62,220 bases of DNA from Candidatus Brocadiaceae bacterium. Lineage in GTDB: Bacteria > Planctomycetota > Brocadiia > SM23-32. The position numbers and the translations under genes were made by a program. Shown here in pieces: positions 40,629-58,316 of this stretch. The stretch is from assembly GCA_012728835.1 (NCBI GenBank), contig JAAYEJ010000051.1, positions 1-62,220 on the forward strand, in the 5' to 3' direction. The stretch's first letter is position 1. Every line of letters begins with the position of its first letter. Below the pieces are notes generated by a model, which saw nothing but the letters and a program-made list of their open reading frames with translations, did not search any database and was not told the DNA's origin.

Positions 40629-41150
40629 ATGAACAAACCACCGTCCGAAGTGGAGGCACTGGTTGCACGGCTGACCTCGGCGAACGGCCGGGACGAGGAC
40701 ATGGCCGAGACCCTGACCGCCATCGTGGCCGAGAAGAACCGGCGCTACTCCATGCGCTACCTGCGCACGCCCTATGCCGACCGACTGGTTCTGCTGCCGC
40801 AGTGCCTGCGCTCCACGGAGCACTGCCAGGCGACCGAGCACAGCAGCGACTACGTATGCGCGCGGTGCCGGGCGTGCAGGGTGGACGAGATACTGACCAT
40901 CGCCGGTAGCCTGGGCTACAAGGGCGTGCGGCTGCTCAAGGGCGGAAGCGCCGTGATGCGGGTGATCGAGGAGACCCGCCCGAAGGCGCTGCTGGCCGTC
41001 TGCTGCCCGATCGAGGCGGTGATGGGCGTCGTCGTGTGCGAGCGGCTCGGGGTGCCCGCCTTCTGCGTACCCCTGCTGCGGGCCGGGTGCTCGGACACCG
41101 ACGTGGACATGAACGATCTGCGTAGCGTCATGGAGGCCATAGTCACGTGA
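40629..41150 (+). CDS. DUF116 domain protein
   Basis: The 173-residue protein shows the DUF116 cysteine pattern: PQCLRSTEHCQA, then CARCRACRVDEI, followed by GYKGVRLLKGGSAVMRVIEETRPKALLAVCC and a C-terminal LLRAGCSDTDVD. The spaced cysteines suggest a metal or Fe-S site. The function of DUF116 is not established to my knowledge. The stop overlaps the start of the radical SAM gene by 4 bases (GTGA), a tight coupling that points to a shared pathway. The frame is open further upstream; ATG 40629 is chosen. Confidence 0.82.
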   Translation: MNKPPSEVEALVARLTSANGRDEDMAETLTAIVAEKNRRYSMRYLRTPYADRLVLLPQCLRSTEHCQATEHSSDYVCARCRACRVDEILTIAGSLGYKGVRLLKGGSAVMRVIEETRPKALLAVCCPIEAVMGVVVCERLGVPAFCVPLLRAGCSDTDVDMNDLRSVMEAIVT

Positions 41151-42268
41151 ACGACCGCTTCTTCCTCTGCTACTTCGAGACGACGCGCCGCTGCAATCTG
41201 CAATGCGCCTACTGCATGGCCCGCCCGGAGACGCCGCCCGAGGGGCGCGAGCTGACCACCGAGGAGGCCAAGACCCTGGTTCTGGACGAACTGGCCAAGG
41301 TCTCGTCCAACGTCGCGGTCGCCTTCTCCGGCGGGGAACACCTTCTGCGCCCGGACGCCTACGAGCTGCTCGCCTACGCTGCGCAGCTCGGTATCTGGAG
41401 CTTCGTCAACACGAACGGGAAGGTGCTCGTTGAAACGGACGCGATCCGCCGGTCCGTCGAGGCGACCGGCGGGAAGGTCGTCTTCGCCCTGCCCCTGAAC
41501 TCGCTGGACGTGGACACGAACCGGGCCACCCGCGACGACGGCCCGTCCACCGTGCTGGAGGCCGCCGAGCGGTGCCGTGAGGAAGGGGCGGACTACTTTG
41601 CGCTGGTCACCGTCTCGCGACAGAACCTGGACAGCCTGGACCGCACCATGCGCTTCCTGAAGCTGGCCGGGGTGCCCGTGCTTCGGGCTCCCTTCGTGCC
41701 CAGGGGGGCCGGCGCGCAGTTCCGCGAGCTGCTCTTCGACTCGGACGACATGCGCGGCGTCATCCACCCCGCCCTGACGGACAACCCCCTGGCCTACATC
41801 TCCTTCACCCCGTTCTTCGCCGCCCCGGAATCGCTGGAGGACCACTGGGCGAGGTCCAACGTGCGAATCTCGGGCCTTGGCTGCCAGGCCGGGCGGAGCT
41901 TCGCCGCCGTCGGCGCGGAAGGCGGGGTGGCCCCCTGTGTCCAACTGCTCGACAGCGGCGCCGTGTGCGGCAACGTGCGCCAGGCTCCGCTGGCCGAGAC
42001 CATCCTCTCCTCGCCGACCTTCACAGCCCTGCGGGACAGAGGCAACCTGAAGGGGAAATGCGGCCGATGCCGCTACCGGGATGCCTGCGGAGGCTGCCGC
42101 GCACTCGCCTACTACCACAACGGCGACATCCTGGCGGAAGACCCCACGTGCTTCTTCGAACCGCAGGATGAGCAGACGCGCTGCGACCTCGAGGAGTACC
42201 AGACGGCGCAGGTTGCGCAGTTCGTCCAGTCGCTGCGCCGCCTCGAACCGTGGAAATCGATGTTCTGA
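41147..42268 (+). CDS. Radical SAM protein with SPASM-like C-terminus
   Basis: The radical SAM cluster motif is CNLQCAYC (C16, C20, C23), and GGE appears as FSGGEHLL. The C-terminal SPASM-type region has cysteines at GCQAG, PCVQL, VCGN, and CGRCRYRDACGGCRAL, then DPTCF, which could bind two extra Fe-S clusters. Radical SAM/SPASM enzymes modify peptides, make cofactors or act in haem biosynthesis (AhbC/D, PqqE). No candidate peptide substrate could be seen nearby. GTG 41147 overlaps DUF116. Confidence 0.85.
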   Translation: MNDRFFLCYFETTRRCNLQCAYCMARPETPPEGRELTTEEAKTLVLDELAKVSSNVAVAFSGGEHLLRPDAYELLAYAAQLGIWSFVNTNGKVLVETDAIRRSVEATGGKVVFALPLNSLDVDTNRATRDDGPSTVLEAAERCREEGADYFALVTVSRQNLDSLDRTMRFLKLAGVPVLRAPFVPRGAGAQFRELLFDSDDMRGVIHPALTDNPLAYISFTPFFAAPESLEDHWARSNVRISGLGCQAGRSFAAVGAEGGVAPCVQLLDSGAVCGNVRQAPLAETILSSPTFTALRDRGNLKGKCGRCRYRDACGGCRALAYYHNGDILAEDPTCFFEPQDEQTRCDLEEYQTAQVAQFVQSLRRLEPWKSMF

Positions 42269-43601: not shown

Positions 43602-44333
43602 CTACCGGCGCAGGGTCCACTCGTCGTTCCGGTACCGGGCCTCGGCCAGGGACTCGACCTCGCGCCGCATGTCCCCCCGGACCTCGAACGGCGGCTGCGC
43701 CCGAGCCGCCTCGAAGGCGACCGCCAGGGCCGCACACAGAGCGGCCGCGCCGCAGGGCAGGTTGGCCACGAAGGCGCCGTGCGGGCGGCCCCCCCGGTAC
43801 TCCGGCCGGGCCTCCGGCTCCCGAAGGTACCGCGACAGGTCGGCGATCCGCAGGCCGTAGAGCAGTGTCCCGTGGTGCAGGACGAAGCGACGGCCGCGCT
43901 TCTGGGCGCTGCCGCCGACCTTCCGCCCGTCCACGGCCAGGTCCGACAGCCCCGCCCGGCCACAGCGGGGGCACTGCGGTGCCAGGGCGGCCGCCAGACG
44001 CCCCACAATCCAGTCGTAGGAGGCGTGCACGCCCCGGAGGGCGGGCCGTGCCTCGGTGTCGAGCGTCACGGAGTAGTTCAGGCAGCCCGGGCCGATCAGG
44101 ACGGTGCCGCCGCCGGAAGCGCGCCGGAGGACCGGCACGCCGTCGCGCCGGCACGCGTCCGTGTGCACGTCGCGCACGCAGCGCGAGGAGACGCCCAGGA
44201 CCACGGCGGGCCGATGGACCTCGTAAACGCGCAGGCACTCGCCGAGGCGGCCGGATTCGGCCCACCGGAGCGTCATCTCGTCGCAGGCCAGGTGGCCGGC
44301 GGGATCGTCGGCATCGAACCGCAGGGGGAGCAT
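43602..44333 (-). CDS. Lipoate-protein ligase A-like (biotin/lipoate ligase family)
   Basis: The 243-residue protein has the lipoate-ligase pattern: RPAVVLGVS, RRASGGGTVLIGPGCLNYSV, and the ligase lysine motif GRKVGGSAQKR. It likely attaches or transfers lipoate (or octanoate) to GcvH. Its ATG overlaps the gcvPB stop (TGATG), so it is coupled to the glycine decarboxylase genes, which fits lipoylation of the H protein encoded upstream. LipB- or LplA-like specificity cannot be told; no lipA is in the window. Confidence 0.82.
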   Translation of the reverse strand: MLPLRFDADDPAGHLACDEMTLRWAESGRLGECLRVYEVHRPAVVLGVSSRCVRDVHTDACRRDGVPVLRRASGGGTVLIGPGCLNYSVTLDTEARPALRGVHASYDWIVGRLAAALAPQCPRCGRAGLSDLAVDGRKVGGSAQKRGRRFVLHHGTLLYGLRIADLSRYLREPEARPEYRGGRPHGAFVANLPCGAAALCAALAVAFEAARAQPPFEVRGDMRREVESLAEARYRNDEWTLRR

Positions 44334-45805
44334 CAGCCGCCGTTCTCGGCCGGAACGGGGGGCACGTAGCAGAGGTCCGGCTTCCGGGCGGCCGCCACCT
44401 CATCGAGCCGTCCCACGGGCGTTGTCGTCGGGCACCGGTGCAGGCTGTCCGGATCGCGCCGGGCCGTCTCGGCGATCTCGATCATGGCATCGGCGAAGGC
44501 GTCGAGCGTCTCACGGCTCTCGCACTCGGTGGGCTCGATCATCAGCGCCTCGGGCACGGTCAGCGGGAAGTAGACCGTTGGGGCATGGAATCCCCTGTCC
44601 AGAAGGGCCTTGGCCACGTCGAGCGCCCGGACCCCGCCGGCGGCCTGCCGCGACGCGCTGAGCACGAACTCGTGCATGCACGTGCGGTCGAAGGGCAGAT
44701 CGTAGTGCGCGCGCAGGCGGGTGCGCAGGTAGTTGGCGTTCAGGACGGCGTTCTCGGCGACGCGGGCCAGCCCCTCGCCGCCGAGTGCGAGGATGTAGGC
44801 GTATGCGCGCAGCACGACGCCGAAGTTGCCGTAGAACGGCGCGAGTTGACCGATCGAGTCCGGCCGGTCGACCGCCAGCGCGAACGTGCCGTCCGGGCGC
44901 CTCTCCACGGCGGGCGTGGGCAGGAAGCGCCGCAGGCGCTCCACAACGCCGACCGGCCCGGCGCCCGGCCCGCCGCCGCCGTGCGGCGTGCCGAACGTCT
45001 TGTGCAGGTTCAGGTGCACGAGGTCGAAGCCCACGTCGCCCGGCCGCACGCGCCCCAGGATGGCGTTCAGGTTGGCGCCGTCGTAGTAGACGAGGCCGTC
45101 CACCGCATGGACGGCGTCGGCGATCCGCCGCACGTTCGGGTTGAACAGGCCCAGGGTGTTGGGGCAGGTCAGCATGAGGGCGGCCGTCTCGTCGTCGACG
45201 AGTTCGCGCACCCCGTCCGCATCGAGCACGCCGCTGTCGTCGGTCGGCGCAACGACGACGTCGAAGCCGGCCAGGGCGGCGCTGGCGGGGTTCGTGCCGT
45301 GCGCCGAGTCCGGGATCAGCACCTTCGTCTTCCGGTTGCCGCGCGCCCGGTGGTAGGCGGCGACGATCATCGCGCCGGTCAGTTCGCCGTGAGCGCCCGC
45401 CATCGGCTGCATGGTGAACTCGGCCATGCCGGTGATCTCGCAGAGCAGCTCCCCTGCGTCGTGAAGGACCTGCAGCGCGCCCTGCGTGCGGGACTCGCCG
45501 CCGGGCAGTTGGGCCAGCAGGGGATGCAGTTGCGCGAACCCGTCCAGCCGCGCCACGTCTTCCAGGATGCGCGGGTTGTACTTCATCGTGCACGAGCCGA
45601 GCGGGTAGAAGTTCGTGTCCACGCAGAAGTTGCGCTGAGAAAGCCGCGTGAAATGCCGCACGGCGTCCAGCTCGGAGACCTCCGCCAGGGCGGCGTCCTC
45701 TGCGCGGAGGCACCCGGGGGGCAGTGCGGCCTCCTCGGGCACGTCTCGGGACGGCAGTCGGTGGGCGCGACGTCCGGCGACGCTCTGCTCGTAGATCAGC
45801 CTCAT
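44333..45805 (-). CDS. gcvPB: Glycine dehydrogenase (decarboxylating) subunit 2
   Basis: The P protein decarboxylates glycine and passes the aminomethyl group to lipoyl-GcvH. This 490-residue beta subunit carries the PLP lysine in LHLNLHKTFGTPHGGGGPG, and PMAGAHGELTGAMI and IPDSAHGTNPASA are family blocks. It starts at ATG 45805 with GAGGAGGTG upstream and overlaps the gcvPA stop by 1 base. Subunit 1 is encoded immediately before it; the split form is typical of many bacteria and archaea. Confidence 0.95.
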   Translation of the reverse strand: MRLIYEQSVAGRRAHRLPSRDVPEEAALPPGCLRAEDAALAEVSELDAVRHFTRLSQRNFCVDTNFYPLGSCTMKYNPRILEDVARLDGFAQLHPLLAQLPGGESRTQGALQVLHDAGELLCEITGMAEFTMQPMAGAHGELTGAMIVAAYHRARGNRKTKVLIPDSAHGTNPASAALAGFDVVVAPTDDSGVLDADGVRELVDDETAALMLTCPNTLGLFNPNVRRIADAVHAVDGLVYYDGANLNAILGRVRPGDVGFDLVHLNLHKTFGTPHGGGGPGAGPVGVVERLRRFLPTPAVERRPDGTFALAVDRPDSIGQLAPFYGNFGVVLRAYAYILALGGEGLARVAENAVLNANYLRTRLRAHYDLPFDRTCMHEFVLSASRQAAGGVRALDVAKALLDRGFHAPTVYFPLTVPEALMIEPTECESRETLDAFADAMIEIAETARRDPDSLHRCPTTTPVGRLDEVAAARKPDLCYVPPVPAENGG

Positions 45806-47136
45806 CACAGCACCTCCTCGAACGCCTGCGCAAGGGAGTCGATCTGGCGTTTGCTGCGCCGTTCGGTCACCGCAACCAGCAGGAGGCGTTCCATGCCGTC
45901 GTAGTAGCGTCCGAGCGGCAGCCCGGCCGCGCAGCCGGCCTCCAGCATCCGGCCGGCGACCTCGGCGGCGTTCTCGGGCAGTTCGCAGACGAACTCGTTG
46001 AACGTGGGGCCGCCGGCGACGACGCGCAGCCCGGGCACGCCGTCGAGCCGCCGGCGGGCGTAGGCCGCCTTGTCGGCGCAGAGCCGGGCGAGGTCCTTGA
46101 GCCCCTGTCGGCCCATCAGTGTCAGGTAGATCAGCGACCCCAGCGCGCAGAGGGCCTCGTTCGTGCAGATGTTGCTGGTTGCCCGCTCGCGCCGGATGTG
46201 CTGCTCGCGCGTCTGCAGGGTCAGGACGAACCCGCGCCGCCCGCGCGAGTCGGCCGTCCGGCCCACGAGCCGGCCCGGCATCTGGCGCACGTGCCGCTGC
46301 CGCGTGGCCATGAAACCGAGGTACGGGCCGCCGAAGGAGAGCGGCAGGCCCAGGCTCTGCCCTTCGCCCGTGACGATGTCCGCACCCATCTCGCCGGGCG
46401 TCTTCAGAAGGCCCAGGGACACGGGGTAGCAGCCCATGAGCGCCAGGGCGCCGCACTCGTGGGCTGCCTCCACGACGTCGGACAGGTCGTCGACGCCGCC
46501 GAAGAAGTCGGGGTTCTGCAGGACCACGGCGGCCGTCTCGCCGTCCAGTCGGGCGCGCACGGCGGCGCGGTCGGTCGGCCCCGGGTGCGGCGGCAGGTCC
46601 ACCAGATCGACCGGCAGGTTGCGGGTGTAGGCGGCGAGCATGCGGCGGTAGATGGGGTTGACGCCGCCGGCCAGGACGACGCGGCTGCGGCCCGTCGTGC
46701 GCAACGCCATCATGACGGCCTCGCAGAGCGCCGTGCCGCCGTCGTAGAGGCTGGCGTTGGCCACCTCCATGCCGGTCAGGCGGCAGATGGCCGTCTGGTA
46801 CTCGTAGATGGCCTGGAGCGTCCCCTGGGACACCTCGGGCTGGTAGGGCGTGTAGGGGGTGTAGAGTTCCCCGCGCCGCAGCAGCGCGTCGACGGCGGCC
46901 GGCACGTAGTGGTCGTAGAACCCGCCGCCCAGGAAGACGGCCAGGCCGGTGTCGTTCTGCTCGGCCAGGTCGCGCAGGTGCGCACGCACGTCCATCTCCG
47001 AACGCCCGGCGGGCAGGCGGAAGCTGCGGGCGCGCAGTTCGGAGGGGATGTCCGCAAAGAGGTCCTCCATGCTCTCGACGTCGATGGCGGCGAGCATCCT
47101 CCGCCGGTCCTCGTCCGTGTTGCTGATGTAGGGCAT
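45805..47136 (-). CDS. gcvPA: Glycine dehydrogenase (decarboxylating) subunit 1
   Basis: The 443-residue alpha subunit begins MPYISNTDEDRRRML, the usual start of split GcvPA. FLGGGFYDHYVPAAVD, ELYTPYTPYQPEVSQGTLQAIYEYQT and ANASLYDGGTALCEA are conserved, as is TSNICTNEALCAL. It forms the heterodimer with GcvPB, to which it is joined by a 1-base overlap. It lies 23 bases after gcvH. Confidence 0.95.
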   Translation of the reverse strand: MPYISNTDEDRRRMLAAIDVESMEDLFADIPSELRARSFRLPAGRSEMDVRAHLRDLAEQNDTGLAVFLGGGFYDHYVPAAVDALLRRGELYTPYTPYQPEVSQGTLQAIYEYQTAICRLTGMEVANASLYDGGTALCEAVMMALRTTGRSRVVLAGGVNPIYRRMLAAYTRNLPVDLVDLPPHPGPTDRAAVRARLDGETAAVVLQNPDFFGGVDDLSDVVEAAHECGALALMGCYPVSLGLLKTPGEMGADIVTGEGQSLGLPLSFGGPYLGFMATRQRHVRQMPGRLVGRTADSRGRRGFVLTLQTREQHIRRERATSNICTNEALCALGSLIYLTLMGRQGLKDLARLCADKAAYARRRLDGVPGLRVVAGGPTFNEFVCELPENAAEVAGRMLEAGCAAGLPLGRYYDGMERLLLVAVTERRSKRQIDSLAQAFEEVL

Positions 47137-47142
47137 GACGAT

Positions 47143-47160
47143 GGGCGCCCGTGGGCGCCC
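47143..47160. repeat. Doubled GGGCGCCC palindrome in the gcvH-gcvPA junction
   Basis: GGGCGCCC GT GGGCGCCC (47143-47160) is a palindrome doubled head to tail, able to form an extended hairpin right at the gcvH 3' end. It could slow ribosomes or protect mRNA ends. Confidence 0.5.
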
Positions 47161-47543
47161 TACTCCTCCTCACTCAGGAAGGCCTCGTACTCGGCGGCCG
47201 TGAGCAGCCCCTCGGCCTGGGCCGGATCGGCGACCGACACGCGGATCAGCCATCCGTTGCCGAAGGGATCGGCGTTGACGAGTTCGGGCTCGGACTCGAG
47301 TGCGTCATTGGCCGCGACCACCTCGCCGTCGAGCGGGGCGTTCAGATCGCTGACGGCCTTGACGGACTCGATCGACCCGAACGGCTGTCCGGACCGGAGC
47401 TTCTGCCCCGGGACGGGCAGTTCCACGAACGTCACGTCGCCGAGCTGCTCGGCCGCATGCTCCGTGATGCCGACCAGCGCGTCGTGTCCCTCGATCCTGA
47501 TCCATTCATGGCTGCGCGTGTAACGACGGTCGTCGGGTGCCAT
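47160..47543 (-). CDS. gcvH: Glycine cleavage system H protein
   Basis: GcvH is the lipoyl carrier shuttling the aminomethyl intermediate. The 127-residue protein has YTRSHEWIR at the start, VGITEHAAEQLGDVTFVELP, and the lipoyl lysine in SIESVKAVSDL followed by PLDGEVVAANDAL; LRSGQPF marks the barrel. ATG 47543 follows AGAAGGAGGC; the longer frame to 47672 includes promoter sequence and is rejected. gcvT (aminomethyltransferase) is not in the window. Confidence 0.96.
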   Translation of the reverse strand: MAPDDRRYTRSHEWIRIEGHDALVGITEHAAEQLGDVTFVELPVPGQKLRSGQPFGSIESVKAVSDLNAPLDGEVVAANDALESEPELVNADPFGNGWLIRVSVADPAQAEGLLTAAEYEAFLSEEE

Positions 47544-47828: not shown

Positions 47829-49727
47829 ATGTGGATCGCTGATCTCCCATACGCAGTCGCCGGTCGAATCAGGCGGCGGGCCATCCGGCCCGCGCTCGAA
47901 CAGGTGAACGCCCTGGAGGCCGAGGTCGGCCGCCGGTCCGATGCCGATCTGAAGGGGGCTGCGGCCCGGCTCCGCCAGCGCCTGAGTCTGGGAGCCACCC
48001 AGGACGAACTTCTGCCGGAGGCGTTCGCCCTGGTGCGCGAGGCAGCCCGGCGCACGGTCGGCCAGCGTCATTACGACGTGCAGGTGCTGGGCGCCGCCGC
48101 GATCCACCGGGGCTGGGTGGCCGAGATGCAGACCGGCGAGGGCAAGACGCTCGTGGCCACCATGCCCGCCTTCCTGAACGCCCTGCCCGGACGCGGCGTG
48201 CACGTGGTGACGACCAACGACTACCTGGCCGGGCGCGACGCCGAATGGATGGGCGGCATCTACCGCGCGCTGGGCCTGACGGTCGGCTGCGTTGTCCATG
48301 GCATGTCCGACGGCGACCGGGTGAAGGCCTACCAGGCGGACATCACCTACGGAACCAACAAGGAGTTCGCGTTCGATTACCTGCGCGACCAACTGCGTCA
48401 GGATGCCGCACGACGCCATCGCCGGGGCGGGATCCTCGAGTCGAGCGCCAACGCCGGACCGCAGCGCGTGCAGCGCTCGCACCACTTCGCCATCGTCGAC
48501 GAGGTGGACAGCATCCTGATCGACGAGGCCCGCGTGCCGCTGATCATCGCCGAGCGCGAGGAGGCGGAATCGCCCTACGCGGCCGCCTATCGCGCGGCGC
48601 GCGCGCTGGCCCTGCAGCTCCGGGCGGGCCGCGACTACACGCTGGACATGGCGCGGCGCAACGTCGAGCTGACGACGTCCGGCATCGCCCAGGCCCGCCG
48701 GACGCCGGCGCCCGCCCTGCCGCCGAACCGCCCGTTCGAGCATCTGGTGCGCCAGGCCCTGCAGGCCGAGCACATGTTCGAGCGGGATCGCGACTACCTC
48801 TTGGTCGACGGCAAGGTGTCCATCGTCGACGAGTTCACGGGCCGCATGCTGGCGGACCGGTCGTGGTCGCTCGGTCTGCACCAGTCGGTCGAGACCAAGG
48901 AAGACGTCGCGGTCACCGACGAGAACCGGACGCTGGCGTCGGTCACGTTCCAGCGCTACTTTCGCCTGTACAAGAAGCTGGCCGGCATGACGGGCACCGC
49001 GCGCGAGTCGCGGGGCGAGCTGCGCCGGGTCTTCAACCTCCCCGTGCTGGCCGTCCCCACGAACAGGCCGCTGATCCGCCGCGCCCATCCCTGCCGCGTG
49101 TTCAGCACATGGGACCGGAAGTACGCGGCCATCCTGGAGCGTATCCGCGAACTGCACGCGCAGGGGCGCCCGGTGCTGGTGGGCACCCGGTCCGTCTACC
49201 GCAGCGAGGTCATCAGCCGGATGCTGACCGACTGCGGCATCGACCACAGCGTCCTGAACGCCCGGCACCACGCCGAGGAGGCCGCCATCGTCGCGGAGGC
49301 CGGCGGGCCCGGCCGGGTGACGATCGCCACGAACATGGCGGGCCGCGGCGTGGACATCATGCTCGGGGCCGGCGTCGAGGCGCTGGGCGGCCTGCACGTC
49401 CTGGGCACCGAGCTGCACGAGGCCGCACGCATCGACCGGCAACTCGGCGGGCGCGCCGCCCGCCAGGGCGACCCGGGCAGCTTCGAGTTCTTCGTGTCGC
49501 TGGAAGACGAACTCCTGGTCCGCTGGAACCGTGCGGTGGCCGCCTGGCTGCGGCGTCGGGCCGCGCGGCGCAAGGGGCGCCCGCCGGGCCGTCACTGGAT
49601 CCTGGTCTTCGAGCTGGCTCAGCGCAGGATCGAGGCCCGCCACCTGCGCATCCGCCTGGACCTGCTGGAGCGGGACAAGAAGCTCGAGGAGATGAAGGGC
49701 ACGCTGGGCGTTCCCTCCTGGGGCTGA
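47829..49727 (+). CDS. Short SecA paralogue
   Basis: The protein has both SecA motor domains: Walker A GEGKT (103-107) in AEMQTGEGKTLVATM, DEVDSILIDEAR (224-235), the cross-linking domain at about 240-390, TGRMLADR, then NBD2 with VLVGTRSVYRSEVIS, VTIATNMAGRGVDIML and RIDRQLGGRAARQGD. It is 632 residues long, versus about 830-900 in housekeeping SecA. The long scaffold helix with wing and the zinc-binding C-terminus are largely missing; only about 60 residues follow the motor. It probably drives export of a special substrate or acts as an accessory translocase, as SecA2 does. It faces, 3 bases away, the M50-HlyD gene. Confidence 0.88.
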   Translation: MWIADLPYAVAGRIRRRAIRPALEQVNALEAEVGRRSDADLKGAAARLRQRLSLGATQDELLPEAFALVREAARRTVGQRHYDVQVLGAAAIHRGWVAEMQTGEGKTLVATMPAFLNALPGRGVHVVTTNDYLAGRDAEWMGGIYRALGLTVGCVVHGMSDGDRVKAYQADITYGTNKEFAFDYLRDQLRQDAARRHRRGGILESSANAGPQRVQRSHHFAIVDEVDSILIDEARVPLIIAEREEAESPYAAAYRAARALALQLRAGRDYTLDMARRNVELTTSGIAQARRTPAPALPPNRPFEHLVRQALQAEHMFERDRDYLLVDGKVSIVDEFTGRMLADRSWSLGLHQSVETKEDVAVTDENRTLASVTFQRYFRLYKKLAGMTGTARESRGELRRVFNLPVLAVPTNRPLIRRAHPCRVFSTWDRKYAAILERIRELHAQGRPVLVGTRSVYRSEVISRMLTDCGIDHSVLNARHHAEEAAIVAEAGGPGRVTIATNMAGRGVDIMLGAGVEALGGLHVLGTELHEAARIDRQLGGRAARQGDPGSFEFFVSLEDELLVRWNRAVAAWLRRRAARRKGRPPGRHWILVFELAQRRIEARHLRIRLDLLERDKKLEEMKGTLGVPSWG

Positions 49728-49730
49728 CCG

Positions 49731-51914
49731 TCAGATCAGGAACCGCCGGTGCAGCACGCGCCGGAGCCGCAGCCAGAACTGCTCGCCCAGCGGCTGGCGC
49801 CCGACCAGGAAGCGCGCGGTGCCCGTCACCCCCACGGGCGGCGCCTCGGAGCCCTGGTCCAGCACCACGTCGACCCGGTACCAGGGCAGCAGCGTCCGGT
49901 CCCGATCGGGCGCCTCCGGATCCATCAGCACATCTCCCCCGCCGACGTTCGTCAGCGAGATGGGCGGTGCCGTGGTGGTGGCCGCGGGGCGCACACGCTC
50001 GATGATGCCTTCGAACACGCGGTCGGGCGTGCTGCGGAACTTGATGCGCACGGGGGCGTCCAGCGCACTGCGGATCACCGGCACGTCGGCGCCGTCCACG
50101 ACGGCGATCACCCGCAGCTTGCCCAGCGACGCCACGGTGAATATCTGATCGCCCCGCTGCAGGAACAGCCCGCCGACGCGCTCCAGTTCCGGCGCGATGA
50201 CCTGCCCGTCGAAGGGCGCCCGGATCGTCAGCGACTCCTTGTGCTCCCTGAGCTGCGCCAGGTCCTTCTCCAGCATCTCCAGGCGGTACGCGACGGCCTG
50301 GGCCGCTGCGGGGTCGCTGCCGACCAGCCGCTGGTAGCGGGCCCGGGCGCCGGCGATCGTCTTCTGCAGCCGCAGGATGCTGAAGTCGAGCTGCTCGTTG
50401 CTCATGACGGCCAGCGTCTGGCCGGCAGTCACGTGCTGCCCGTCGCACACGAACACCCTGTCCAGGAACCCCGGCCAGTCGGCGCGGAGCACCTGCAGTT
50501 CATGCGGCTCCATGGCACAGGGCACGCGCACACTGCTGGCGACCGGCTGCACGCCCAGCAGCACGAAGAGCGCGGCGGCGGTCGCCCCGGTCACCAGCAC
50601 GGCCCGGGCGCGCACCGGCCGGGTCTCCTTCGCGAAGAAGACGTACTTCAGCACCTTCACCAGCGGGGTGAGCACCCACAGGACGGCCACGCCGACCGCC
50701 AGGGCGACCCCGATGAAGAACAGCTTCGAGGCGATGAACAGGATGATCCCCGTGACGATGACGCAGCGATACAGGGTCGAGAGCACTCCGTAGCCCACGA
50801 ACCACGCCTTCTCGCGCGGCGAGTCCGTTGATGCGGGCAGCCGCTGGCCGATGACGTAGCGCTTGACCAGGTAGAGGAGGTACTCGCTGGAGCGCTGGCG
50901 CAGGTTGGCGATCTCCAGGTAGTCCGCCAGGATGTAATAGGCGTCGTAGCGCAGCAGCGGGTTGCCGTTGAACAGGATCGTCGAGACGCTGGCGATGAAG
51001 ATCATGTTGTACAGGATCGTGCGCAGGAGGCTCGGTTCGAGCGACAACCATGCGAACAGCGCCAGGGCGGCGATGAACAACTCCGTCATCATGCCGCCGC
51101 AGCCCACGAGCACCTTGTGCCACTTGCCCGGGAACGCCCAGACGGGCGTCGTGTCCACGTAGAGCAGCGGCATGAAGATGAGGAACATCACCCCCATCCG
51201 ATGCACCTCGGCACCCTGGTTCTTCGCGGCGTAGGCATGCCCCAGCTCGTGGCAGCCCTTGATGAGCATGAAGGACACGTAGAGCAGGACGAGGTTGCCG
51301 GGGGCCAGGATGCCGTTGGCCGGCCGCATGAGTTCGGCGGCGTTGTAGAAGAACGCCACGATCGCCGCCCCGATCGTCAGAAGCCAGACCAGGAGGAACC
51401 CCCGCGAGAACACCCACCGCACGTAGGGCATCGTGGCGTTCAGGAAGCGCTCCGGGTCCACCAGCGGGATCGTCACGTACATGAAGCTGGCGAACTTCTG
51501 CTTCCTGCGGTCGCGCCGCTTCTTCATGGCGCGCTCAACGCCCCAGCGCGACTCCTCCCCCGGGTCGGGCACGGTCAGGTTCGCGTGGCGCAGCATGAGC
51601 GCGAACTGGGCCAGCTCGCGGAAGGAGGGCGCGTCGTTGCCGTGCTTCTTGCGCAGGCGGTCGTAGACCGTGCCGAGCGTCGTCTGGCCGTCCATCTGGG
51701 CCAGGATCTCGCGCTCCACCAGGCCGATGCGGTAGTACTGCAGGCTGACGGGGTCCTGCAGCACGAAGCAGCGCGCGCCGCGGAACGTCTGGGGCACCAC
51801 GTCCGTGTCCGGCCGCAGCCGCGGCTTCTGCTCGCGCAACTGGGGGGCGTACTCCTCGAACTCCAGCTCGCTGGACAGGTCGAAGTCCGGCTTCCTCGGC
51901 CCGAAGAGCATCAC
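49731..51914 (-). CDS. PqqD-like/M50 peptidase/HlyD fusion membrane protein
   Basis: Residues 33-115 resemble a PqqD-type recognition domain (RLRPDTDVV to RHANLTV), a kind of peptide-leader binding module. Then come membrane helices with the site-2-protease zinc motif HELGH (222-226) and the second aspartate D324 in GNPLLRYDAYY, typical of M50 metalloproteases. A further helix near 435-455 leads to a HlyD-type lipoyl/coiled-coil adaptor (about 465-700), with FDGQVIAP and an ISLTNVGGG loop. The 727-residue architecture suggests recognition, membrane cleavage and delivery of a client on one chain. It is last in a minus-strand run, 13 bases after the GAF-HlyD gene. Confidence 0.85.
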   Translation of the reverse strand: MMLFGPRKPDFDLSSELEFEEYAPQLREQKPRLRPDTDVVPQTFRGARCFVLQDPVSLQYYRIGLVEREILAQMDGQTTLGTVYDRLRKKHGNDAPSFRELAQFALMLRHANLTVPDPGEESRWGVERAMKKRRDRRKQKFASFMYVTIPLVDPERFLNATMPYVRWVFSRGFLLVWLLTIGAAIVAFFYNAAELMRPANGILAPGNLVLLYVSFMLIKGCHELGHAYAAKNQGAEVHRMGVMFLIFMPLLYVDTTPVWAFPGKWHKVLVGCGGMMTELFIAALALFAWLSLEPSLLRTILYNMIFIASVSTILFNGNPLLRYDAYYILADYLEIANLRQRSSEYLLYLVKRYVIGQRLPASTDSPREKAWFVGYGVLSTLYRCVIVTGIILFIASKLFFIGVALAVGVAVLWVLTPLVKVLKYVFFAKETRPVRARAVLVTGATAAALFVLLGVQPVASSVRVPCAMEPHELQVLRADWPGFLDRVFVCDGQHVTAGQTLAVMSNEQLDFSILRLQKTIAGARARYQRLVGSDPAAAQAVAYRLEMLEKDLAQLREHKESLTIRAPFDGQVIAPELERVGGLFLQRGDQIFTVASLGKLRVIAVVDGADVPVIRSALDAPVRIKFRSTPDRVFEGIIERVRPAATTTAPPISLTNVGGGDVLMDPEAPDRDRTLLPWYRVDVVLDQGSEAPPVGVTGTARFLVGRQPLGEQFWLRLRRVLHRRFLI

Positions 51915-51927
51915 GCACCTCCCCCCT

Positions 51928-53883
51928 CTACCACCACAGGCGCATGCGGACCCAGTTGAGGAGCTTGCGCGTCCACACCCAGGTCACGTTGCGCCGGTCC
52001 ACCCGCACCTTGGCGGCGCCCTCCATCCCCGGCCGGAGCCAGCCGTCGTCGTTGCGCACGAGGGCCTCGGCGACGTAGACGCTGGCCCCCCCGCGCACCT
52101 CCGGCATGGGGCGCACGTTGCCCACGGTGAACTCGATGGCCTGGTCGGGCTTCGCCTTCGTCGTGAAGCGGCCCGCCTGGCCCCGGGAGAGGTAGTGCAC
52201 GTCTCCCTGGCTGACCTGCACCTCCAGGACCATCTCCTCCAGGGGGGCCACCTCGATCAACTGCTCCCCCTGCTTGACCGGCCGCCCGACGCTGTGCGTC
52301 AGGTCGCCGGCCGTCACGATGCCCGCGAACTCCGCCCTCAGCTCCACCCGCGCCAGGTAGCTCTCCAGAAGGTCGATCTCCGCCCGGAGCATCTCCCCTT
52401 CGGCCTTCGCCTCTTCGTACTCGGACACCTTCTGTTCGCCCAGCAGCGTGCCCATCCGCTTGCGGACGCCGGTCAGCTTGCTCCGTGCCTCGCGCAGGCG
52501 CATGTCCAGCTCCTCACGGTCGAACCCGACCAGCACGTCCCCCGGCGCCACCGTGTCGCCGGGACGCACCGGCGCGCGCCGCATGGTCGTGTCGAACGGG
52601 GCGGCATAGACCTGCCGGTAGTACGGCTCCAGCGTACAGCTTCCCTTGAGGTTGAACTCCACCCGCCCGAACACGGCGAAGGCGACCAGGGCGGCTGCGG
52701 CCAGGGCGCCGGCCTTGCGCCAGGGATGCTCCTTGCCGAACGTCCAGGCGGCCGCCGCCTTCAGGGCGTCGCGCGTGCGCGCGACCGGCCCGCGCGAGTT
52801 CTGACGGGCCAGGTTCATCACGGGGCCGATCTGCCCGGCGGCGATGTCGATGACCTGGCGCAGCTCGTCCGTCAGTGGCGTCGAGCCGAACTCCAGCGTC
52901 CAGGCGCCGATCACCTCGCCTTCGCGCCGCATCGGGACCGTGTAGACGGTCTGCATGCCCCGTCCGGTGGCCAGGAGTTCGTGCTGGGGGTTGCGCACGG
53001 TCTGCTCGGCCCGCGCCTCGCCGGCGGCCGCTGCCTCGTAGAGCCCCGCTTCGGCCGAGACGAGGACCTCCGTCTGCGTGGCGGCGACCTGGCGCACCAT
53101 GTTGCTGCGCGGGTCCAGGATGTCCTCGCCCGAGATGGCCGCCACGGCGATCTTCTGGCCCTTCACGAACCCGACCGACGCGCGCTCCGCCCCGAAGGCG
53201 ACCCGCGAGCGGTCGGCCAGCACCTGCGCCATCTCGTCGTCGCGGGTGAACGCCAGCGTCTCCCCCACCAGTTCCCAGGCGGCCGAGAGCAGGTCGTAGA
53301 ATCGCTGGTAGCGCGCCGACGACTTCACGGCGCCATAGAGCATCCCGAAGTCCGCCAGGAGGCGCAGCATCGCGATGCCGGCGTCGGTCAGGACGGGGCT
53401 GCGCTGGGGCACCACGACGGTGACGCAGCCCTCGGTCTGCTCGTCGCCCCGGACCGGGAAGCCCAGGGCCATGTGCTTTTCGCCCGTCAGCAGTTCGCCG
53501 TCCGCCTCGCCGACGGCCTGGTAGCGGATGATGGTCTGGCGTATGACGCCGGCCGCCATCTCGCCGAGGGTCCGGCCCCACGCCCGGGCGCCCTGCTCGG
53601 ACACCTTCGGGGCGAGTTCGGCCACGGCGTCCAGCACGCCCCGTTCCGCATCCACACGCCAGTAGGCGCCGTAGATGGCGTCCGAGAGCGAGACGAGACC
53701 TCGCAGCACCTCCTCGATGAACGTCTCCGGAGGGGTGCCGGGGCGACAGACCTGCTGGACCGAGTCGATCAGCGCCAGGATCGGCAGGCGCGCATCGGCC
53801 CGGTCCTGCGCCGTCTGTTCAGCGGGGCCCTGGTGCGTCTCTGAGGTGCTCACTGACCGAGCCGCCCTTCCATGCTGGGACAT
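51928..53883 (-). CDS. GAF-GAF-HlyD fusion membrane protein
   Basis: The 651-residue protein has two GAF-like domains (about 35-190 and 200-365), a transmembrane helix (about 388-405, AGALAAAALVAFAVFG) and a periplasmic HlyD-type adaptor (410-640) with the typical GDTVAPGDVLVGFD lipoyl turn, a coiled coil (residues 455-515) and FAGIVTAGD. The GAF domains would sit in the cytoplasm, so a signal or ligand may be sensed there. This coupling of GAF and membrane-fusion domains is rare outside planctomycetes to my knowledge. Confidence 0.85.
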   Translation of the reverse strand: MSQHGRAARSVSTSETHQGPAEQTAQDRADARLPILALIDSVQQVCRPGTPPETFIEEVLRGLVSLSDAIYGAYWRVDAERGVLDAVAELAPKVSEQGARAWGRTLGEMAAGVIRQTIIRYQAVGEADGELLTGEKHMALGFPVRGDEQTEGCVTVVVPQRSPVLTDAGIAMLRLLADFGMLYGAVKSSARYQRFYDLLSAAWELVGETLAFTRDDEMAQVLADRSRVAFGAERASVGFVKGQKIAVAAISGEDILDPRSNMVRQVAATQTEVLVSAEAGLYEAAAAGEARAEQTVRNPQHELLATGRGMQTVYTVPMRREGEVIGAWTLEFGSTPLTDELRQVIDIAAGQIGPVMNLARQNSRGPVARTRDALKAAAAWTFGKEHPWRKAGALAAAALVAFAVFGRVEFNLKGSCTLEPYYRQVYAAPFDTTMRRAPVRPGDTVAPGDVLVGFDREELDMRLREARSKLTGVRKRMGTLLGEQKVSEYEEAKAEGEMLRAEIDLLESYLARVELRAEFAGIVTAGDLTHSVGRPVKQGEQLIEVAPLEEMVLEVQVSQGDVHYLSRGQAGRFTTKAKPDQAIEFTVGNVRPMPEVRGGASVYVAEALVRNDDGWLRPGMEGAAKVRVDRRNVTWVWTRKLLNWVRMRLWW

Positions 53884-53967: not shown

Positions 53968-54309
53968 TTACGTGTTGGGCTCGGCGTCGGCGCCGGGCAC
54001 CGGAGCCACCTGGGGGGTGGTCTCAATCAGGCCGTGGCGTGCTTCATAGCGCTTGATCAGGTTGCCCAGCGTCATCGCCAGACGCTTGGCGGACGGGTAG
54101 GTCATGATGATGCGGTTGGATATCTCGGCGTTGACCTCGCGCTGAGCCGTCGGCGGCGTGATGTTCGTGCCGAAGTTCAGGACGACCTCCTCCGGGGTGC
54201 TCGTCAACACCGCGATGTTCGCATAGGCGGTCGCCGTGTTCTCGTAACGGAGGTTCAGCGTGCCGCGCTGCTGCTCGTCCGACGCCTGATCGCTTCTCTC
54301 TTTGGCCAT
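53968..54309 (-). CDS. DUF3467 family protein
   Basis: The 113-residue protein has the DUF3467 core: LRYENTATAYANIAVLTSTPEEVVLNFGTNI, then NAEISNRIIMTYPSAKRLAMTLGNLIKRYEARHG. The family is small, cytosolic and of unknown function; its sequence suggests a compact beta-alpha fold. It lies 33 bases after the HlyD gene and 84 before the GAF-HlyD gene, so it is part of the operon. Confidence 0.88.
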   Translation of the reverse strand: MAKERSDQASDEQQRGTLNLRYENTATAYANIAVLTSTPEEVVLNFGTNITPPTAQREVNAEISNRIIMTYPSAKRLAMTLGNLIKRYEARHGLIETTPQVAPVPGADAEPNT

Positions 54310-54342: not shown

Positions 54343-55338
54343 CTACTCGCTGAGTTCAAACCGAAGCGGTCCCCGCGCGCCCGCCGCCACGGACCCGTCG
54401 GGGTTCGGCAGTGTCAGCTTCACACGGTACGTCTCGCTGCCGACATTGGCAACCCTGTCCACCACAACGACTTCGCACTCGAGTTCGCGCTCCAGATACG
54501 GGATGGACAGGCGCGCCGTCATGCCCGGGTGGATGCGTCCGAATGTCTCGATCGGCGCGTTCGCGACCACATACAGCGGGTCCAGACAGACCATCTGCAG
54601 CATCGGATTGTGGATTTCCACGGCCTCGCCCGGGCGCTTGGCAATCCGCAGTATCCGCCCGTCGATCGGCGCACGCACGATCGTCTGTGCCAGCCGTTCG
54701 TCCTCCAGTATGTTGGCGGCCTCACTGGCGGTCAGCGTCGCCTCGGCCGCACGCACCCGCCACTCGGCCAGGTCCCGATCGAGCCGGGCCTTCACGCACT
54801 CCACCTCCGGAATCACCTTCTGCGCAAACAGGTCGGCCGAACGCTCATACTCGGCCGTGATGACCTCGCAGTTGGTCTGCTCAGCCTTCAGTTGCACCTC
54901 GGCCGCCTCCGTCTGGGCCTGCTGCCACCGGCGCCGCGCCTCCACCACGCCGGCCGCAAACCGCACCAGCACCTGTCCCCTGGTGACCCGATCGCCTTCC
55001 TCCACATCCACGGCACCGATCACACCGCCGATCTCGGCAGCGATCTCCAGGTCGCGAAACGGCAGCGTGATGGCGTCGCACACCACCACGGAGACGCCAT
55101 CGTCCGCGGAGGGCGCGGCCGGGGATTCCTCCGGCGTGAAGGGCCGCTCGGGCTCCTGCCGGGCCGACACCGTCGGCCGCATGGCGGCGTGGGCGACCGC
55201 CCCGATCGCGGGAGGATCGACGGGGGGTGTTCCGGCCGGCTGCATGGGGCCGCCGCGCGGGACGCACAGGGCCAGGGCGCCCAGAAGAGCGACGCCGAGC
55301 ATGACCGCCATGTGCCTTCGTGCACTGGACTGCGCCAT
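54343..55338 (-). CDS. HlyD/RND-type periplasmic adaptor protein
   Basis: The 331-residue protein has a signal anchor (about residues 10-27, MAVMLGVALLGALALCV), a lipoyl hairpin (GGVIGAVDVEEGDRVTRGQVLVRF), a coiled-coil hairpin of about 75 residues, the second lipoyl half IVRAPIDGRILRIAKRPGEAV, and beta-barrel strands. It is a membrane-fusion protein, but no RND or ABC partner is adjacent. The start at 55338 gives the typical signal anchor; the frame extends upstream to 55461. Confidence 0.85.
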   Translation of the reverse strand: MAQSSARRHMAVMLGVALLGALALCVPRGGPMQPAGTPPVDPPAIGAVAHAAMRPTVSARQEPERPFTPEESPAAPSADDGVSVVVCDAITLPFRDLEIAAEIGGVIGAVDVEEGDRVTRGQVLVRFAAGVVEARRRWQQAQTEAAEVQLKAEQTNCEVITAEYERSADLFAQKVIPEVECVKARLDRDLAEWRVRAAEATLTASEAANILEDERLAQTIVRAPIDGRILRIAKRPGEAVEIHNPMLQMVCLDPLYVVANAPIETFGRIHPGMTARLSIPYLERELECEVVVVDRVANVGSETYRVKLTLPNPDGSVAAGARGPLRFELSE

Positions 55339-55535
55339 TCCGTCCGTACCCCGCTCCTTACCGCAACGGCCCGTGCTGTCTGGAACCCGACGCGCTGCCC
55401 GGCAGCCCCGCCCCATCAGGCTGCTGCAGCACCGGCCGCCACACCCAGAGGGGGAACGCACACCACACCGGGCAAGGACATCCGCCGCCCCGGCACGGCA
55501 CCCGACAATCCGCCATCAAAGGCTCACGCAGCCGC

Positions 55536-58316
55536 TCACAGGACGGTGTAGTAGACGGGCAGCGCCGGACCGAAGAACATCCTCCTCTGGATCCGGCTGA
55601 TCCCTCCGACCTTCAGCGATCCGAACGTGTAGGCGCCGATGCCCGGTCCGTCGATCTGCCCGGCGATGTCCACCTTGCCGATGGACCCGAGCAGGAAGCC
55701 CGCGTATGCCTCGGCGTACGCGAGGTTCAGCTCTCCCATCACGGGGGTCGCTCCGGCGGCGATCAGCGAGTTCGTCACGCTCCCCACGCCGCCGTACAGG
55801 CCGAATGAGTGCTTGACGCGGAAACTGCCGATACTGGCGGGCCGGTAGGTGTCCGCATCGGCGCCGAGCCCTCCGACCTGAAGGTCCGCACCCAGCTCGG
55901 CGCCGGCCAGCATGCGGAGGCCGGAGACCGTTCCGCCCACGTCCACCTTCCCGATCGAGAAGCCGGCCAGCACCTGAACACCCAACATGTTGACGCCCCC
56001 TTCAGAGACGTCGAATCCCATGATCGAGGCGCTCCGGAGCGCTCCCAGCGTGCCGCCCATCACGATGTGGGAACCGAACCAGATCGCGCCGCCGACACGG
56101 ATGTCGGCCGCCGAACCACCGATGTCGATGGTGCTGACCAGGTTGCTGTCCCAGTAACCCTCCATCGCGCCCCCAATGGACAGCTTCCCGGAGTTCCCGC
56201 CGACGCGGATCGGCATCCACTGACTGCCGCCGATGTCGATCTGCGAGCTGGAGCCGGCGACCGTGATCGCGCCGATGGCGGTCCCCGCCATGGAGATCTT
56301 CCCGGAGTTCCCGTCCACCACGGTGTCGCCCAGAACCGAGCCCTTGACCTTCAACTGGCCCAGGCCGCCGAAGTAGAGGTCCGCCGGGACAAACCGGGGG
56401 ATGTCGACCTTGCCGGCCTGCCCGTCGATGTAGATCCCGGTGAAATCGCTCGTCACGCCGTCGCCGTCGATGTCATCCGGCAGTATCTGCCCGTCGAGCA
56501 CGGCCCCGTTCAGGTTTGCGCCGGTGACGCCGGACCTCAGCTTGATGCTCCCGACCGGGCTGTTGGAGACGACGTATGTGATGTTCGCCATGCCGGCGCG
56601 GTTGTCCTGGATCTTCTTCACGAACGACGCACCGGAGATCACCACGCCCACGCCGTCCTGCCCGGGGCCGCCACCGAACGTGACGCTCTTGATCTGCTGG
56701 CCGCCTCCGAACCGCACGTCGACCGCCAGCGGGTCGACGTTCACGAACCCCTGGGTGTCGTAGATCGTCACCGAGACCGGAGCGCTCACGAACGCGGCCA
56801 CCGGGATGTTGATCGGGTCGTCGAACATCACCCGCTGGACCGTCGCCAGCGCGTTGACCCGCCCGCCGGTGGCAACCAGTCCGTCCAGCCACGGCATGTA
56901 CTCCGCCCCGGCCAGGATGGCGTCGCGCACCTGTTCCATCGAGGCGGCCGGATTGGCCGACCAGGCCAGCACGGCGATGCCGGCGACGACCGGCGTCGCC
57001 ATGCTTGTGCCACTCAGGAAGCTGGCATACGTGCCCGCCAGCCACGTGCTGTAGATGCCGTGCCCCGGCGCGGCCACGTCGACCGACCGCACGCCGTAGT
57101 TGCTGAAGCTGGCCAGCCGGTCGTTGTGGTCCGTGGCGGCGACGGAGATGATGTTCGGCAGATCGTAGCTGGAGGGATAATGCGGCAACAGGTCGTTCTC
57201 CATCCCCTCGTTGCCCGCCGCGGCGATGAACAGGCCGCCCACCGCGCCGTAGGCGGCGATGGCCGTCTGCAGGTCCGGCTCGAATCCGCCGCCTCCCCAG
57301 CTGTTGTTCGTGACCAGCACGTTGGCGCCGGGGTTGCCGTCGCCGTCGCCGTTGTCGAACTCCGCCTTCATCATCGTGGCGTAGTTGATGGCCGCAATGG
57401 CCCCGGAGGTCAGTCCGCCCTCAGGGCCAAGGAAACGCAGGGCCATGATGCTCACGTCCCATGCCACGCCCGTCACGCCCATCGCGTTGTTGCCCGCGGC
57501 CCCGATGGTGCCGGCCACGTGTGTTCCGTGCCCGTTCTCGTCCATCGGGTCCGCATCGTCCGCAAAGAAGTCCCAGCCGTAGACGTCGTCGATGAACCCG
57601 TTCCCGTCGTCATCCACACCGGGGGTGCCGCCCAGTTCGAGCTGGTTCACCCAGATGTTGTCGACCAGGTCCGGATGCGTGTAGTCCACGCCCGTGTCGA
57701 TCACGCCGACAACGATGCCCGAGGAGCCGGTCGTGGTGTCCCACGCCTCGACGGCGTCGATGTCCGCGTCGAAGATGCCGCCGCTCTGCCCGGTGTTGTT
57801 CAGATGCCACTGATTCGGCGCGAAGTTGGTGTCGTCCGGCACCGCCAGGGGCTGGATCAGCGCGTTGGGCGTGTACATGGCGACGTTCGGGTTCGCGCTC
57901 AGCCAGCTCTCCACGGCCCCGGCCTCGGCGCCCCGCGTGGAGATCAGGATCTGCCCCTGCATCCCCAGCCCCTGCAGGACGGTGAACTCGATGCCACCGG
58001 ACAGCAGGGTCGCGCTCTCGGCCACGCCGGCGACGCTCTGGGCGGCCTGGCCGGTGAACTGCACGATCCACTGGTCCTTGACCACCTCGACGGTCCGCCC
58101 GCGCAACTCCCTGAGTTCGGTCCCGTAGTCGCCCAGTGTGCCCTGGACGCCGCCGCTGTAGTCCGGCGTCCGCTCGAACCAGGCGGGCGCCACGACCAGC
58201 GACGCGGTGCTCAGCCAGCCGTCGCCACTGAGCATCACCCGCGGCTCCAGCGGCTGCAGAGAAAGAGAGACCTTCGCGTGCTTCGCAGTCCGGATGTCCT
58301 TGCCCACAAACCCCAT
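55536..58316 (-). CDS. Secreted LEPR-type subtilase (S8 family) with repeat-rich C-terminus
   Basis: The N-terminus has LEPR at residues 23-26 in LEPRVMLSGDG, a planctomycete N-terminal motif thought to mark exported proteins, without a classical signal peptide. The peptidase domain has the catalytic triad D207 (VIDTGVDYTHPDL), H263 (NGHGTHVAGT) and S438 (SGTSMATP), plus N338 in NNSWGG as the probable oxyanion-hole residue. From about 560 on, the sequence is Gly/Val/Ile-rich with recurrent GGxxGK-I/V-I-G units, suggesting a beta-solenoid or cell-surface stalk. The 926-residue protein starts at ATG 58316 after GGAGGTTTGAC. A strong promoter lies at 58470-58442. It precedes the HlyD operon by about 200 bases on the same strand. 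Confidence 0.92.
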   Translation of the reverse strand: MGFVGKDIRTAKHAKVSLSLQPLEPRVMLSGDGWLSTASLVVAPAWFERTPDYSGGVQGTLGDYGTELRELRGRTVEVVKDQWIVQFTGQAAQSVAGVAESATLLSGGIEFTVLQGLGMQGQILISTRGAEAGAVESWLSANPNVAMYTPNALIQPLAVPDDTNFAPNQWHLNNTGQSGGIFDADIDAVEAWDTTTGSSGIVVGVIDTGVDYTHPDLVDNIWVNQLELGGTPGVDDDGNGFIDDVYGWDFFADDADPMDENGHGTHVAGTIGAAGNNAMGVTGVAWDVSIMALRFLGPEGGLTSGAIAAINYATMMKAEFDNGDGDGNPGANVLVTNNSWGGGGFEPDLQTAIAAYGAVGGLFIAAAGNEGMENDLLPHYPSSYDLPNIISVAATDHNDRLASFSNYGVRSVDVAAPGHGIYSTWLAGTYASFLSGTSMATPVVAGIAVLAWSANPAASMEQVRDAILAGAEYMPWLDGLVATGGRVNALATVQRVMFDDPINIPVAAFVSAPVSVTIYDTQGFVNVDPLAVDVRFGGGQQIKSVTFGGGPGQDGVGVVISGASFVKKIQDNRAGMANITYVVSNSPVGSIKLRSGVTGANLNGAVLDGQILPDDIDGDGVTSDFTGIYIDGQAGKVDIPRFVPADLYFGGLGQLKVKGSVLGDTVVDGNSGKISMAGTAIGAITVAGSSSQIDIGGSQWMPIRVGGNSGKLSIGGAMEGYWDSNLVSTIDIGGSAADIRVGGAIWFGSHIVMGGTLGALRSASIMGFDVSEGGVNMLGVQVLAGFSIGKVDVGGTVSGLRMLAGAELGADLQVGGLGADADTYRPASIGSFRVKHSFGLYGGVGSVTNSLIAAGATPVMGELNLAYAEAYAGFLLGSIGKVDIAGQIDGPGIGAYTFGSLKVGGISRIQRRMFFGPALPVYYTVL

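Follow-up and report, generated by a model that had tools for sequence, protein, structure and literature searches.

What would a bacterium do with a single polypeptide that joins a PqqD-like domain, an M50 protease and a HlyD adaptor, and on what would such a protein act? The question is raised by a gene at positions 49731..51914 of the minus strand (read from 51914 to 49731) in a contig of a Candidatus Brocadiaceae bacterium (JAAYEJ010000051.1, assembly GCA_012728835.1; the whole 62,220-nucleotide stretch analyzed is here called the window). The gene starts with GTG, the next codon being ATG, and encodes 727 amino acids. A preliminary description had proposed that one chain combines leader recognition, intramembrane cleavage and periplasmic delivery, which are functions of separate proteins in peptide natural-product systems. 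The three-part build is borne out by profile searches, predicted folds and conservation. We consider it likely that exoproteins with the LEPR-XLL motif are exported by a SecA2-linked, type I-like secretion system, and that this fusion protein is its central component in the inner membrane.

The N-terminal domain (about residues 32-116; 51567..51818, minus strand) had been called PqqD-like from its length and its start (RLRPDTDVV), and this assignment has held. The window's own domain by itself falls short of a match to Pfam PqqD, and matches TIGR03859 weakly (0.0071). When it was aligned with the domains of 50 related loci, 45 of the resulting 51 matched the Pfam family PqqD (PF05402; best 2e-9), and the recurrent NCBIfam matches were mostly to PqqD-type chaperones. 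A profile of the domain found three matches among PDB sequences, all of them PqqD (3g2b at 1.5e-3, 5sxy and 5vrd). An AlphaFold2 model of residues 21-136 (pLDDT 84) has three strands followed by three helices, which is a PqqD-like fold. Searched against the PDB with Foldseek, this model gave as its top six matches chains of B1 proteins with a bound leader, which act in the synthesis of lasso peptides (6jx3, 5v1u/5v1v), followed by the RRE-bearing enzymes ThcOx, CteB and LynD; E-values were modest (4e-3 at best), with a probability of 1.00 and a TM-score by target of up to 0.74. On these profile matches and the model, the domain is predicted to be an RRE of PqqD fold. Because solved RREs with the same fold bind leaders, the matched PDB entries being leader complexes, we propose that the RRE of the fusion would likewise bind a leader peptide.

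The middle of the fusion is predicted to be an M50 site-2-type protease. Its Pfam match (residues 213-353, 5e-6) scores 26.4 bits, slightly below the cut-off of 27.2. The zinc motif HELGH (residues 222-226; 51237..51251, minus strand) and D324 both lie exactly where they had been placed earlier. The latter residue is a candidate third zinc ligand within NPLLRYD (residues 318-324; 50943..50963, minus strand); in alignments of 30 and of 40 homologues it varies hardly or not at all. Loss of the zinc motif, which would have counted against the assignment, was not seen: H, E and H are kept in 77/77 homologues, and HExxH lay outside the pattern used to retrieve this set. D323 and N317-P318 (in 726-aa numbering) are also invariant in the 77 homologues, but the retrieval pattern, NPL..DGY, had preselected them; the D and NP positions are nearly invariant also in a Planctomycetota set gathered by similarity. 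In an AlphaFold model of the full-length protein (pLDDT 88), the membrane core around the site is helical, and HExxH and the distal NPxxxxD are both present.

Residues 471-648 (49971..50504, minus strand) form a HlyD/MacA-MexA-like adaptor domain, with Pfam matches to HlyD_D23 (6e-13) and HlyD_3 (1e-9). For the C-terminal part of the full-length model, the best Foldseek matches were MacA (3fpp, 2e-13) and MexA. Phage and defence readings of the fusion were dropped, as PHROGs and PADLOC returned nothing useful.

The fusion gene is the last of a minus-strand operon, transcribed in the order LEPR-XLL subtilase, HlyD, DUF3467, GAF-HlyD and fusion. The first gene (55536..58316) encodes a 926-aa subtilase of family S8 (Peptidase_S8, 2e-54), which is a candidate cargo. 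Near its residue 23 is the LEPR-XLL segment LQPLEPRVMLSGD (58218..58262, minus strand), a candidate leader. The motif (LEPR-8K profile, NF012209) scores 18.3 bits against a cut-off of 17, and 23 bits in a search of the genome. The following genes encode a stand-alone HlyD/RND-type adaptor of up to 372 aa (54343..55461; NCBIfam RND_mfp, 114.5 bits, over the cut-off), a 113-aa DUF3467 protein (53968..54309; Pfam 5e-18), for which a search for a relative of known structure found none, and, directly upstream of the fusion, a 651-aa protein with the Pfam domain order GAF-GAF-HlyD (51928..53883). Converging on the fusion gene and 3 nt from it is a plus-strand gene (47829..49727) for a secondary SecA of 632 aa, which by Pfam is without the wing/scaffold and SEC-C domains. 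The single other SecA of the source genome has 882 aa, including wing/scaffold and SEC-C, and is 45.5% identical to the window copy. The OEP genes of this genome lie away from the module.

Next to the SecA gene are glycine cleavage genes, assigned by sequence alone (43602-47543, minus strand; gcvH at 47160-47543, gcvPA/gcvPB at about 44333-47136), and beside them, at 43602-44333, a gene whose sequence suggests a probable lipoate-protein ligase. Past these is a radical SAM/SPASM gene (41147-42268, plus strand), considered as a possible maturase of ribosomal peptide products (RiPPs) and rejected: it is closest to the haem enzymes AhbD/NirJ2, far below cut-offs, some 7.5 kb separate it from the fusion, and it does not accompany the module in other loci.

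The module is kept in Planctomycetota, Verrucomicrobiota, Pseudomonadota, Nitrospirota and other phyla. In 70 of 77 relatives, the M50 gene is directly preceded on its strand by a GAF-HlyD gene, and in 57 SecA2 is the next gene downstream (median gap 5 nt). In 80 loci of named organisms (Pseudomonadota, Desulfobacterota, Nitrospirota, Verrucomicrobiota, Fibrobacter, Elusimicrobia, Omnitrophota and others), an HlyD gene was found in 51, DUF3467 in 19 and an OEP/TolC-type gene in 10; neighbor genes were called with a simple home-made gene caller, and partner counts are approximate. The recurrent neighbors of these 80 loci include no ABC exporter, and SecY2 does not recur beside the module. In 40 Planctomycetota regions, counted as homology clusters that include the window, GAF-HlyD appears in 33, HlyD in 28, a short SecA in 15 and DUF3467 in 10. 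In many Pseudomonadota loci, DUF3467 stands directly between giant proteins and GAF-HlyD, and could be a cargo chaperone. A SapC-family protein (Pfam 1e-67; L102:7868-8734) is present in six loci, mostly of Alphaproteobacteria, and may be an additional component.

These partners bear on two explanations other than protein secretion. In the first, the GAF domains would sense a signal, the M50 site would release a regulator, and the HlyD parts would be structural. The GAF domains and the zinc site of S2P type speak for this view, and Kamneva et al. (PMC4452313) suggested that the GAF protein is regulatory. However, no further gene family, and hence no regulator, recurs in the way that SecA2, the adaptors and OEP do, and those indicate export. 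We therefore give site-2-protease signaling very little credence.

In the second, the fusion would be a RiPP maturation and export protein that binds a leader, cleaves it with the M50 site and delivers a small modified peptide. Residues 32-416 match the NCBIfam model NF041824, "daptide intramembrane metalloprotease" (1.6e-46), and the RRE-M50 part also matches NF058609 (1.5e-8), so that this part resembles the daptide and YydH/LiaK/epipeptide proteases; moreover, M50 proteases work in epipeptide and pearlin pathways (PMC10885120). Yet both scores are far under the curated cut-offs (159 bits versus 300 for the first), and the conserved partners of the fusion are SecA2, HlyD proteins and LEPR giants. 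Short peptide genes near homologues, for which the preliminary description had advised a search, were sought as conserved ORFs of at least 60 aa in 120 neighborhoods. No precursor gene was found, the sole short conserved neighbor being DUF3467 (~110 aa), and no peptide-modifying enzyme recurs in these neighborhoods. The tight spacing of the core operon, both in the window (3-84 nt) and between M50 and SecA2 genes in relatives (median 5 nt), also leaves no space for a precursor gene. RiPP maturation is, in our judgment, highly improbable. Of the original proposal, then, leader recognition is supported by profile, fold and conservation, whereas the implied peptide natural-product setting is unsupported.

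What, then, is the cargo? The LEPR-XLL motif of the window's subtilase prompted a test of whether LEPR co-occurs with the module. Among 294 Planctomycetota genomes, 66 have the fusion, 26 have LEPR-XLL and 25 have both; the exception (G165) has LEPR-XLL without a detected M50-HlyD, in an assembly that may be incomplete. Conversely, 41 of the 66 fusion-bearing Planctomycetota genomes gave no LEPR match at E <= 0.01. The motif is short and has variants such as LESR and LEER; a LESR copy in the source genome scores 13.9 bits, which is under the threshold. Missed variants may account for some of the LEPR-negative genomes, although perhaps not for all. When genomes of many phyla, mostly from outside Planctomycetota, were picked solely for having the fusion, LEPR was present in 41/43, versus 0/14 controls at the same threshold. 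In 199 genomes from the family of the Shimia locus L102, LEPR is found in 17/17 with a full-length fusion (E < 1e-149) versus 5/182 others. M50-HlyD is present in 89 of 398 Pseudomonadota genomes, including 40 of the 41 with LEPR; in the 309 genomes without it, LEPR occurs once (G740, whose assembly may be incomplete). The Fisher p-values for Planctomycetota (2e-17), the Shimia family (2e-20) and Pseudomonadota (7e-29) are merely descriptive, and they overstate independence because the sampled genomes are related. The recurrence of the association in several phyla is the stronger argument.

The association extends to gene position. In a Rhodobacteraceae sample, 19/22 strong LEPR copies are on the contig of the M50 gene, 18 of these 19 on the same strand, and most giant LEPR ORFs end 0.9-4 kb from that gene. 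Similarly, 22/28 same-contig LEPR copies in Pseudomonadota are less than 10 kb from the M50 gene. The longest LEPR ORF beside the module has 17,824 aa; the largest open frame with LEPR-XLL in these searches, of 19,427 aa, is in another Pseudomonadota genome (G594:C115:112865-112924). In Planctomycetota, LEPR genes lie no more than about 16 kb from the fusion in G000, G160, G173, G199, G230, G231 and G155, and many others are scattered. The source genome itself has at least three further LEPR candidates (618, 914 and 2549 aa); the two longer ones have Ig-like domains, and the 2549-aa candidate also has FG-GAP repeats. Since there are several candidates, one module may serve multiple cargos.

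The link to LEPR differs between forms of the fusion. In Pseudomonadota, LEPR is present in 32/37 genomes with the form closest to that of the window and in 8/52 with a divergent form. Divergent M50-HlyD loci (L211-L218 and L220; Rhodobacteraceae) have no SecA2 alongside, and other giant proteins are present. Because the divergent set in Pseudomonadota rarely has LEPR and these Rhodobacteraceae loci lack SecA2, the fusion family is not bound to LEPR alone, and the cargo rule may be broader. In L215, L216, L217 and L220, a divergent M50-HlyD gene with GAF-HlyD and DUF3467 is located by giant proteins; SecA2 is absent there and no RRE match could be detected. These loci are possibly a sister export system. 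Where no RRE is matched, the domain may simply have diverged. A giant protein by another divergent M50-HlyD gene (L212:3-8297) has the variant leader YPLEERILFDAAAAAD at its start, which suggests that related systems have other leader types.

LEPR N-termini have the same layout in both phyla: a basic stretch of roughly 10-40 residues, then [FLI]E[APT]LEPRxLLSAD. A hydropathy scan of the 32 of 36 LEPR sequences that could be parsed found no hydrophobic core, with no 19-residue Kyte-Doolittle window above about 1.5 from -40 to +120 of the motif. Judged by sequence, these N-termini do not resemble signal peptides of the Sec pathway. An RRE on the membrane part fits a conserved cargo N-terminus that is without a signal peptide, and we therefore propose that the RRE recognizes LEPR. 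The "leader" in this system is probably the LEPR segment that starts proteins of 600-18,000 aa. Whether the RRE of the fusion reads this leader is, in our estimation, evenly balanced. That the M50 site removes it is a proposal we make with a shade less confidence: S2P-type proteases usually cleave inside membrane segments and LEPR leaders have none, which weakens the case for removal.

What we observe are the domains, an operon that is conserved, and LEPR genes that co-occur with it and lie nearby; on these observations we base a model of secretion. The cytoplasmic RRE would bind the short basic LEPR segment at the N-terminus of the cargo, which here would include the subtilase, product of the operon's first gene. 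The secondary SecA would push the unfolded chain, and the membrane part of the fusion would form or gate the inner-membrane passage, while the M50 site would take off the LEPR leader. In the periplasm, an adaptor built from the stand-alone HlyD protein, the GAF-HlyD protein and the HlyD part of the fusion would connect to an outer-membrane channel of the TolC type. The steps of this model (export itself, binding and cleavage of the leader, transport driven by SecA, and passage through a pore) are inferred; that the module exports LEPR proteins is, in our view, very probable.

A different account is that LEPR proteins exit by a canonical type I system or by Sec, and that the role of the module is confined to their processing, anchoring or release at the envelope. 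The best-supported feature is indeed association rather than transport, and the module has a protease and no identified known pore. On the other side, LEPR N-termini are without a Sec-like hydrophobic core, and the module's three HlyD proteins and SecA-type ATPase, joined in some loci by an OEP channel, suit transport better than processing alone. We consider this account unlikely, and favor secretion by the module.

We further suggest, more tentatively and short of calling it probable, that the module represents a distinct, widespread and unnamed class of Gram-negative secretion system, in which an RRE on a protease-adaptor fusion selects LEPR-XLL giants, a truncated SecA powers their passage, and the leader is cut during exit. 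LEPR-XLL proteins include some of the largest bacterial ORFs, and the secondary-SecA locus described in 2015 had no known cargo; linking them gives each a testable role, and predicts that the LEPR motif is a leader rather than a signal peptide. If this is true, a leader-binding domain of natural-product pathways is used for sorting very large proteins.

The locus type itself has been known since Kamneva, Poudel and Ward (2015; PMC4452313) described secondary SecA_DEAD genes with M50/HlyD, GAF/HlyD and HlyD genes; among the carriers they name is Methylobacterium extorquens AM1 (META1p2402-2399). They proposed T1SS-like secretion, with SecA as the ATPase and the M50 protein as a possible pore, called the role "completely unknown", and found the secondary SecA clade to be related to actinobacterial SecA2. 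Their locus and ours share a SecA without wing/scaffold (SecA_SW), the M50+HlyD, GAF+HlyD and HlyD proteins, sometimes OEP, and overlapping phyla. However, the text of that paper has no PqqD, DUF3467 or LEPR; what the present analysis adds is the RRE domain and the link to LEPR-XLL cargo, both of which appear to be new. In open-licence PMC text we found no paper that links LEPR-XLL to this locus or explains the export of LEPR-XLL proteins.

Other comparisons concern the parts. The daptide, YydH/LiaK and EpeP M50 proteases align in their N-terminal region and M50 core with fusion residues 32-416, and EpeP is believed both to cut its peptide and to export it (PMC10885120); the fusion differs in scoring far below the cut-offs for these proteins, in its added C-terminal HlyD domain and in having no RiPP genes. 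With PqqD and other RREs (lasso B1, LynD, CteB, ThcOx), it shares fold and profile, and solved examples bind leader peptides; the RRE of the fusion, for which such binding is presumed, instead sits in a protein-secretion locus and is joined to a protease and an adaptor. Type I secretion (HlyB-HlyD-TolC) likewise involves HlyD-family adaptors, an OEP channel (here in some loci) and giant cargo, but the module has SecA2 and the M50 protein in place of a conserved ABC exporter, and its candidate signal is N-terminal rather than C-terminal. In the accessory SecA2 systems of Gram-positive bacteria, a second SecA serves special large surface proteins. The module resembles them in its second, reduced SecA, apparently dedicated to such proteins, and differs in that its partners are HlyD proteins rather than a recurrent SecY2.
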